A stretch of 55,623 nucleotides of DNA from NCBI GenBank assembly GCA_023700245.1, contig JAJPRE010000008.1, forward strand, positions 1-55,623, written 5' to 3'. The DNA comes from Candidatus Thalassarchaeaceae archaeon (GTDB lineage Archaea; Thermoplasmatota; Poseidoniia; Poseidoniales; Thalassarchaeaceae). The position numbers were made by a program, and so were the translations under genes. The notes below the pieces were generated by a model. That model had not been told where the DNA came from. It worked only from the letters and a program-made list of their open reading frames with translations, and ran no database searches. Shown here in pieces: positions 7,648-10,668 of the stretch (position 1 is its first letter; the number at the start of each line of letters is the position of its first letter).

Positions 7648-8775
7648 TTATGCACTATGTGTTTTTCCTGCACCTCTATGTCCAATTAGCCTAGAAACTT
7701 CCCATGGCAAACTACTTTCAGTAGTTTCTTCTAGTAATGTATCTAAATCTCTTTCCCATGACCATTTACTTCTCCAAATTTTAATAAATGATTTTCTCTC
7801 AACATCTGACATTTCGTGCCAAGGTGTTACTTCACTCTTATATCTAGAAAGTACATTAGCATGTTGATCCTTTGGAATATTATCTAAGTCCGCTCTTTGT
7901 TCGTCAGTTATGGGTTTAGTAGCGGGTGTTGTCCATCGAATATCTCCGCCCTTTAAAGTAGTAGAATTAGGAGATAAATCATCAGTTATCCCAGTTAATC
8001 CAGCATCTAAGAGTAACCTTTCTACATCATCTCCACAAGGCCATACGTATACAGGATAACCTCTCCTATGCTTGTTTAATCTATCTAATTTTGAACCCTT
8101 AAGGCCAACTGATAATCCTAAGTTTATCCTACTTTCTATTCCTTTTAGGTATTGTAAAGTACAAGGTAACATGGGGGAACCCTCTTTACGTTGTTTATTC
8201 ATTAATCTAGGTAATGAACTCATCAGAAAAGAAGGTGCAGCCGCTATCCTTTGCGTTTTCCAAGTACCCCATTGACGGATATAAGGCCTCAATCTACTAA
8301 ATTGTAAATTGCTACTAATCTGTTTCGATGCAGGAATTAGTTTTGCTTCGAATGAATATATGATATTACTAGTTTTACTTAATTTCAATGGACTTATATG
8401 TTTCTCCAAATTTTCAATCATATTTATCATATGTTCTGTTCTTTTCTTACCTCCTATCCATCCTCCTGCCTTTCCACTTGATGGGTGTGGAGGTTTCAAT
8501 TCGATACAAGCAAATGCCCCTTCTTCAGTAATTCTTCTTATGAAATTTGAATTTGTCAATAAGTCTTCTAATGGTTCTATATATTCAGGCAATTCATCTA
8601 GATTCATGCATTCAGGATAATCTCCATATTCAGTCTTTGAATCATGATGGAAGATTAGCTGATCATCTTTCGTCAATCTTAAATCAAATTCTATCCCATC
8701 ACTAACCTGTATGCCATGTGATAATGCTTGTATGGTATTTTCTCTAGGTTGTAACCATTCCCGTCCTTCTACCAT
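7648..8775 (-). CDS. Glycerophosphodiester phosphodiesterase-like protein, motif order circularly permuted
   Basis: This 375-residue protein carries the GDPD active-site motifs in rotated order. The N-terminus starts directly at PRENTIQAL (residues 10-18). It continues with GIEFDLRLTKDDQLIFHHD (E29 and D31 metal ligands, H44 catalytic) and CIELKP (E92, K94), and closes the barrel with VYVWPCGDD and GLTGITDDL (to residue 267). The HRG motif that normally precedes PENT is absent from the N-terminus. It appears at the very C-terminus as LIGHRGAGKTHSA (H366-R367-G368), after a helical Trp-rich linker of about 97 residues. Joining C-terminus to N-terminus restores HRG-17 residues-ENT, a spacing I recall from eukaryotic GPCPD1/Gde1 enzymes. 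A stop (TGA) lies two codons before the ATG. Activity is inferred. Confidence 0.72.
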   Translation of the reverse strand: MVEGREWLQPRENTIQALSHGIQVSDGIEFDLRLTKDDQLIFHHDSKTEYGDYPECMNLDELPEYIEPLEDLLTNSNFIRRITEEGAFACIELKPPHPSSGKAGGWIGGKKRTEHMINMIENLEKHISPLKLSKTSNIIYSFEAKLIPASKQISSNLQFSRLRPYIRQWGTWKTQRIAAAPSFLMSSLPRLMNKQRKEGSPMLPCTLQYLKGIESRINLGLSVGLKGSKLDRLNKHRRGYPVYVWPCGDDVERLLLDAGLTGITDDLSPNSTTLKGGDIRWTTPATKPITDEQRADLDNIPKDQHANVLSRYKSEVTPWHEMSDVERKSFIKIWRSKWSWERDLDTLLEETTESSLPWEVSRLIGHRGAGKTHSA

Positions 8776-8877
8776 ATCTCAACGCATGTTGTCTTTACAC
8801 ATAAATTTCATCATTATATGGCTAAATAAGCCCCAATACTAAAACCCTAGTAAGCCGACCGAGCGATAGGTATTGAC

Positions 8878-10668
8878 ATGTCAGAGACAATTCAACTAGA
8901 CCGGAAATCAAATCCTCAAGAAGTAAAAGGTTACGCAGTTTATGACTGGGCGAAGTCCGCATTCGAAACATCAGTAACTGTAGCAGTCTTACCTGCTTGG
9001 TATGCGTATCTTTTCCTAAAAGCGAATGGTTTGACTACTTCCATTGGTTCAATTGAAATGGGAGGCGATGCAGTTTGGTCCTTTGCAGTTGCTTTTGGAA
9101 CTTTATTCGTAGCAATTATAAGCCCTTCTTTTGGAGTAATTGCAGATAGAAGAAGAATTAAGATGCGGTGGTTAAGAATTCTTACATATGTCGGAGCAGG
9201 ATCCACTTTCCTTCTGGCATTTGCACCATTAATGCCGGTAGATACTCAATGGATTTGGCTAATGGTTTTCTTTATGCTTGCAAATGTAGGATTAAATGGT
9301 GCAGGAGTATTCTACAATGCTCTTCTTCCACATATGGGTTCCGATGATGAAATGGATCGAATCTCAAACCTAGCTTTCTCAGCAGGTTATCTTGGTGGAG
9401 GAATATTACTTCTTGTTCACCTCATCATGGTCTTATCTTTGTCAGGAGATTGGGTAATTCCATTCGTAATGGCATCTTCTGGAATATGGTGGTATGGATT
9501 TGCTTTATTGACATTTAAATGGGTCCCTGAACCACCTATCGAGAATGAAATGCCTAATCTTGGCTTTATTGAATCTGCGAAATTAGCTATTTCCGAAATA
9601 AGAAAAACTCTTGGAGAAGTGGATAAATTTAGAACCCTCTTCATTTATATGGTTGCATACTTTTTCTTTATTGATGGGATAAACAGCGTAACTGCATTGG
9701 GAGGGGTATTTGGCTCAACAGTTCTGGGAATTACAACTGTTGATTTGATAGTAACGATATTGGCAATTCAATTCGTAGCATGGCCATCTGCACTTATGTT
9801 TACTCGGCTAGCAAGTAAAATAGGGACTAAATCTGCACTAAATATTTCTCTGGTAGGGTGGGTTGTACTATGTTTTGCAGCCCTTTCTTTCGCTCCACTT
9901 GAATTTGCTAATCACGATGAGTACCAAGTACAGATAGAAGAGGTCGATGGTGAATGGTTCTATACGCCACATGCTAACTTAGCAGAGACGCCTATTGCAT
10001 TAGTAGAAAGCGGTGATGAACAGTTATGGGCCGAATCTACGTTACTCCCCTTTGGTATAGTACAGCAGGATGCGGATATTAACGATGCCCAAATTTTTCA
10101 ATGGGCAGGCTTTGATGATGACGGTGAGGTAATTACTATCAACATGGGATCTCTTGATTTGGAAACTCAAACATCTTTGCTAGATTCATTTGAAGATACA
10201 AGGTTTTCAATTAGTGCCAAAGCTGGAATTTTAGAATCAAATATGGTCGGAATAGACCATCCGACAAGCCTTGGTGATGGCGTTATTGATGTTATTCCGG
10301 ATACTGTAAGAACTTTAGTTTGGGGCCCGTTGGGAATTTCTGTAGGTATACAATTTTTACTATTGGGTTGTGCAATGGGGACACTTCTAGGCGGATCTCA
10401 AGGATTAGCAAGAAGTATGTTTGGGCAAATGGTACCTGAAACAAGAAGTGCAGAATTCTTTGGATTCTTTGGATTCTTTGGTAAAGTTGCAGCATTCATT
10501 GGGCCATTATTGTATGGATTTATGACCGTAATGTATGATAGTCGAATGGGGATATTATCTATCGCCGTACTAATCTTAATTGGTGCATTGATGATGAGAA
10601 TGGTCGATCTCGAAGAAGGTAGGGAAGATGCAAAAGCCGAAGATGCTCGTAATCGAGGGATGGCTTAA
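8878..10668 (+). CDS. UMF1/Atg22-like MFS permease with inserted extramembrane domain
   Basis: A 596-residue major facilitator. The N-terminal YAVYDWAKSAFETSVTVAV is the hallmark of the UMF1 (Atg22-like/BtlA) branch. Repeated hydrophobic helices span the protein, and the C-terminal MVPETRSAEFFGFFGFFGK segment followed by AAFIGPLLYG is also typical. Between about residues 342 and 476 lies a hydrophilic, Asp/Glu-rich insert with little helix-forming hydrophobicity (for example FQWAGFDDDGEVITINMGS). This insert breaks the usual 12-helix layout and explains the excess over the usual length of about 420-450 residues. Substrate unknown; Atg22-type proteins export amino acids from vacuoles. The ATG at 8878 is supported by the conserved N-terminus. 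The stop overlaps convergent tatC by four bases. Confidence 0.82.
   Translation: MSETIQLDRKSNPQEVKGYAVYDWAKSAFETSVTVAVLPAWYAYLFLKANGLTTSIGSIEMGGDAVWSFAVAFGTLFVAIISPSFGVIADRRRIKMRWLRILTYVGAGSTFLLAFAPLMPVDTQWIWLMVFFMLANVGLNGAGVFYNALLPHMGSDDEMDRISNLAFSAGYLGGGILLLVHLIMVLSLSGDWVIPFVMASSGIWWYGFALLTFKWVPEPPIENEMPNLGFIESAKLAISEIRKTLGEVDKFRTLFIYMVAYFFFIDGINSVTALGGVFGSTVLGITTVDLIVTILAIQFVAWPSALMFTRLASKIGTKSALNISLVGWVVLCFAALSFAPLEFANHDEYQVQIEEVDGEWFYTPHANLAETPIALVESGDEQLWAESTLLPFGIVQQDADINDAQIFQWAGFDDDGEVITINMGSLDLETQTSLLDSFEDTRFSISAKAGILESNMVGIDHPTSLGDGVIDVIPDTVRTLVWGPLGISVGIQFLLLGCAMGTLLGGSQGLARSMFGQMVPETRSAEFFGFFGFFGKVAAFIGPLLYGFMTVMYDSRMGILSIAVLILIGALMMRMVDLEEGREDAKAEDARNRGMA

Follow-up and report, generated by a model that had tools for sequence, protein, structure and literature searches.

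What becomes of a glycerophosphodiesterase (GDPD) when the motif that should open its chain stands at the opposite end? The question is raised by an open reading frame on the minus strand at 7648–8775 of the window, the whole 55,623-nucleotide stretch of a Candidatus Thalassarchaeaceae archaeon analyzed here. The frame opens with ATG and encodes a protein of 375 aa that starts MVEGREWLQPRENT and ends SRLIGHRGAGKTHSA directly before the stop codon. Its only Pfam match is PF03009 GDPD (E 1.4e-8, 35.6 bits against a cut-off of 23.6), and this match covers profile positions 9–47 only, the HRG-bearing start of the profile being absent from the N-terminus. No signal peptide is evident by eye, so the protein is likely to be cytosolic.

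Motif order and residue conservation

An earlier note on this DNA had described all GDPD motifs as present but rotated, and this is the order found, with strand β1 (GHRG) at the C-terminus, both in the 375-aa protein and in its relatives. The new N-terminus lies just before the ENT element (E12-N13-T14; 8734–8742, minus strand, as are all features of this gene), where helix α1 starts (residues 15–24 in the predicted structure). The element that the note called PENT-like reads RENT here and PENT in many relatives. Next come the ExD metal-ligand motif in strand β2 (E29 and D31; 8683–8691; strand 27–34), the HD motif in the GDPD insert with the putative second catalytic histidine (H44-D45; 8641–8646), and the ExK motif in strand β3 (E92 and K94; 8494–8502; strand 88–93). 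Residue W245 in strand β7 (8041–8043; strand 242–247) is the W of a motif resembling the WTxN of GDPDs. A normal GDPD domain nearly ends at TDDLSP (residues 264–269; 7969–7986), just past strand β8 (261–264). Here, a Trp-rich helical linker (residues 270–361; 7693–7968) continues from β8 to the relocated strand β1, RLIGHRGAG (residues 362–370; 7666–7692; strand 363–366), which carries H366 and R367. The linker had been recognized as joining the last and first strands, with a length of about 97 residues; measured from TD-P to HRG, the stretch is 100 residues here and 60–103 across the family.

The same arrangement recurs in related genomes of marine archaea, where the motif order could be followed in two sets of relatives. 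Among 59 genomes, comprising that of the window and those nearest to it, 55 have a homologue, and in 53 of these 55 the protein ends with GHRGxG and a tail no longer than about 15 residues. The two exceptions are L037, which is cut by a contig end, and L055, which ends about 40 residues early. A scan with one genome per species added 80 further loci, named Candidatus Poseidoniales, Poseidonia, Thalassarchaeum, Euryarchaeota or Marine Group II, with one titled Deltaproteobacteria, and all 80 end with HRG. The two sets overlap, their 135 loci corresponding to 117 distinct proteins. The rotated order is found in 133 of the 135, and an N-terminal HRG in none of the 80 and 55 relatives. The conservation of GHRGxG at about 5–15 residues from the C-terminus across these relatives rules out chance.

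The short protein of L055 (also L199:1573–2604; genome G014) is encoded by a permuted GDPD gene that is missing its C-terminal part, including HRG, and that lies 7 bases from a convergent citrate synthase gene. Either strand β1 was lost naturally in this gene or the assembly carries a deletion.

The orthologues also decide whether the gene only looks rotated through a frameshift, a misassembly or a truncation. The start codon is preceded two codons upstream by an in-frame TGA (8779–8781), as the earlier note had pointed out. This stop, directly upstream of the start, is what a frameshifted gene could show, and it equally excludes an N-terminal extension here. The longer upstream open frames of some relatives (up to 592 aa) contain no HRG either, in keeping with what had been observed for the upstream frames in the window. 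Against a frameshift, the same order occurs in assemblies from many projects and in a one-contig genome, with neighbors conserved on both sides. An artifact of this kind, doubted from the start, is refuted by the orthologues and retains a negligible probability.

HR, ExD, HD and ExK, the residues expected of a GDPD, are present in the 375-aa protein and throughout the family. Of the 117 distinct sequences, 115 reach positions 13, 29, 31 and 44, and every one of these has N13, E29, D31 and H44; E92, K94 and D265 are constant in all 117. W245 is conserved in 116 of the 117. GHRGxG is nearly invariant, H366 being present in 116 and R367 in 115, with only gaps in the remainder, while the D45 position holds D in 110 sequences and N in 5. 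This pattern bears on the possibility of a non-catalytic GDPD-like protein whose permuted fold was kept for binding or regulation after activity was lost. The weak agreement with the GDPD profile outside α1-β2 would suit such a protein, but the catalytic and metal positions stay invariant wherever present among the 117 distinct sequences, at overall identities that fall to about 30%, which makes a loss of activity very unlikely.

The letters of GHRGAGKT also fit the Walker A pattern GxxxxGK[ST], which would make the C-terminus a nucleotide-binding P-loop instead of the HRG of a GDPD. The K is found in 94 and the T in 86 of the 117 sequences, however, while H, R and both Gs are constant; no helix follows the motif, since the chain ends there, and the profile and fold matches are to GDPDs. 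The P-loop reading, rejected because K and T vary, has scarcely any probability left.

Predicted fold and rotated sequences

The structure of the window protein was predicted with AlphaFold2 as a monomer, using 58 relatives as input, with a pLDDT of 92.5 and a pTM of 0.92. The model places barrel strands at residues 27–34, 88–93, 137–141, 159–161, 203–206, 242–247, 261–264 and 363–366. If the small strand at 40–42, which belongs to the GDPD insert, is not counted, there are exactly eight barrel strands only if 363–366, the C-terminal LIGH strand, is counted as strand β1. The block 361–370 that contains it has a mean pLDDT of 97. The linker preceding it is modeled with high pLDDT as helices at 291–298, 302–315, 324–337 and 344–350. 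A second member of the family, whose linker is about 25 residues shorter, gave the same barrel strands (pLDDT 92.7, pTM 0.91). This eight-stranded barrel implies that H366 and R367 would lie near E29, D31, H44 and E92.

All PDB fold matches found by Foldseek with E ≤ 0.001 are GDPDs or GDPD-like proteins, so that model and matches agree on a GDPD-type TIM barrel. The TM score of 0.64, by target length, refers to the chain minus β1, as Foldseek aligns in sequence order. Fold, profile and catalytic residues are thus those of a GDPD, while the linear order, in which HRG should come first in the N-terminal strand, is not: every member whose end is intact has HRG at the C-terminus. The family is therefore best called a permuted GDPD variant.

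A helical linker of 60–103 residues between TD-P and HRG would be long enough to permit another arrangement, in which a subunit lends its GHRG strand to the barrel of a neighboring subunit and the rotated chain is workable only as an oligomer. Closure of the barrel was predicted on the monomer only. Within that single chain, however, the barrel closes with a pLDDT of about 97 for 361–370, and it does so as well in the member with the shorter linker, which leaves a shared barrel improbable. The circular permutation of a TIM barrel suggested by the earlier note is instead well supported by the motif order of the orthologues together with the predicted fold.

Rotating the sequences provides a further comparison. 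Pfam GDPD matches in the family begin at profile position 7–11 in nearly all members; the one match of 2–69 belongs to a gene that is interrupted where its contig stops. When the 375-aa sequence is doubled, the match spans the junction, covering residues 366–423 from profile position 1. The rotated protein scores 43.6 bits from profile position 1, compared with 35.6 in its natural order, and rotation of five diverse members raised the score in every case and extended the Pfam match to position 1. A canonical profile was also made from 32 GDPDs of normal order, taken from this phylum alone. Against it, rotation raised the score in 49 of 52 members, with a mean of +2.6 bits, while the control in which the moved piece was shuffled gave a mean of +0.25 bits. 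Each sequence gains little, since the HRG-ENT loop formed on joining exceeds the length found in normal GDPDs. The spacing from HRG to EN after joining is 18 residues here and mostly 15–19 in the family, as against 5–7 in normal-order GDPDs of the phylum.

Distribution and descent

A search with the family profile (E below 1e-25, full-length or split) confines the family to one order, Poseidoniales, where it is present in about 289 of the 319 genomes of its two families. With the same profile, a third family from another order of the class, probably marine group III, and the rest of the phylum yield only weak matches to ordinary GDPDs. The ordinary GDPDs examined elsewhere in the phylum have the normal order and a Pfam match from position 1. 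Because the GDPDs examined in the rest of the phylum are ordinary ones, the sequences are most simply explained if the permutation arose once, on the stem of the order and before it diversified.

The gene neighborhood is kept across the order, with citrate synthase convergent on one side and an MFS or TatC gene on the other. The conserved order with citrate synthase is consistent with vertical inheritance. A tight operon function was considered and rejected: the citrate synthase (convergent) and ATG22-like MFS (divergent) genes are conserved yet lie on the opposite strand, which reflects shared ancestry and not a pathway. The product of the MFS gene at 8878–10668 is ATG22-like and 596 aa long, and about 100 of its residues form a soluble stretch that separates membrane segments. 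In some of the order this gene stands divergent to the GDPD gene; in the other part, TatC occupies the position beside GDPD.

The sole bacterial record, L151, is titled Deltaproteobacteria bacterium AH-558-G13 and is 92% identical along its length to the Poseidoniales contig L141, with the same gene order. It is probably contamination, and a bacterial occurrence was rejected. A scan of viral contigs found no relatives.

Other GDPD-like genes occur in these archaea. Genus g7 carries a normal-order GDPD of about 317 aa that is apparently secreted or membrane-anchored (L056:1357–2310 and L057), and one genome of this genus with the normal-order gene, G015, seems to be without the permuted one. 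A second conserved GDPD-like protein, of 191 aa and in normal order, is encoded in the window's own genome (L198:880–1455; G000:C15) and also at L072 and L084. It contains the motifs GHRLGASGT..ENT..EFDI..HDD..EIK and matches the GDPD profile only over about 2–141, and its second barrel half may be missing or strongly diverged. At L084:2655–3284, an acidic repeat protein built of DSDGDGIGDNSDMFPLDPLE units adjoins this short GDPD-like gene.

Duplication with truncation is the standard model for circular permutation (PMC3320104). No member with HRG at both ends, as a duplication intermediate would have, was found among the sequences examined; such forms would support this one route and need not exist for every permutant, and duplication followed by truncation is a possible route here.

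Proposed mechanism and relation to known barrels

Taken together, the protein is very probably a functional, cytosolic, metal-dependent GDPD with a TIM barrel that underwent circular permutation naturally, a change fixed before Poseidoniales diversified. The old ends, after β8 and before β1, would have been joined through the helical linker, and new ends opened in the catalytic β1-α1 loop, between HRG and ENT. The resulting chain order, α1-β2-...-β8-linker-β1, would still close the usual eight-stranded barrel. By position, catalysis would fall to two histidines, H366 of HRG and H44, with E29, D31 and E92 holding the metal. Glycerophosphodiesters would then be hydrolyzed to sn-glycerol-3-phosphate and an alcohol.

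The lysophosphatidylglycerol phospholipase D LpgD, which uses a dual-histidine metal mechanism of the GDPD type, is taken here as the model (PMC10404611). In LpgD, activation of the sn-2 hydroxyl depends on one histidine together with the metal. The other histidine, that of the HD motif in the GDPD insert, first gives a proton to the leaving group and afterwards serves to activate water (PMC10404611). In our own mapping, the hydroxyl-activating histidine would correspond to the HRG histidine, and H44 may, by analogy, act like LpgD His93 (PMC10404611). LpgD differs in its canonical order and its membrane lysolipid substrate.

A product of sn-glycerol-3-phosphate fits the metabolism of these archaea, as a G3P dehydrogenase domain is common (52 of 58 genomes, the window's own and 57 relatives) and none of the 58 has a G1P dehydrogenase family match over the cut-off. 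The same dehydrogenase pattern, without the classical archaeal enzyme for the lipid backbone, was reported earlier for marine group II (PMC6962369).

The best profile and fold matches of the family are the PF03009 GDPDs (for example PDB 2pz0, 3no3 and 1o1z), which share the eight-stranded TIM barrel and the HR, ENT, ExD, HD, ExK, W and TDxP motifs. In contrast to these, the permuted family has β1 with HRG moved to the C-terminus and an extra helical linker after β8, and has both chain ends in the β1-α1 loop, with HRG and ENT not covalently joined. A normal-order comparison is offered by L196, a GDPD of the sister order, which belongs to the same marine archaeal class (MSPRIISHRGK...PEN). Its strand β1, PRIISHRGKT, resembles PRIIGHRGAGKT of the permuted protein, but it has the canonical order, 228 aa and no linker.

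Natural circular permutation of a TIM barrel with retention of the catalytic motifs is also known from the GH70 glucansucrases, which are permuted relative to GH13 (PMC11046441). GH70 is an unrelated family that starts at α3, with strands 1–3 moved, whereas in the permuted GDPD only strand β1 is moved and the cut falls inside the catalytic loop. No description of a permuted GDPD was found in the literature, taken as open-licence papers, CIRPIN does not mention phosphodiesterases, and the arrangement appears to be new. It is probably the first natural circular permutation in the GDPD/PLC-like phosphodiesterase superfamily, fixed at the root of an archaeal order, with both ends in the catalytic β1-α1 loop of what would be the main GDPD of an archaeal group that ranks among the most abundant in the sea.

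Few TIM barrels have been documented as natural circular permutants, and the GDPD case is a clean one: the sister order supplies a normal-order relative, the permuted orthologues number in the hundreds, and their distribution is a single one that spans an order. It also means that what would be a key lipid-recycling enzyme of the uncultured archaea of marine group II, in which the glycerol-phosphate chemistry of the lipids is a question of its own, is only partly matched by profile searches. The permuted GDPD makes it possible to test directly how an enzyme can tolerate the transfer of its chain ends into its own catalytic loop.
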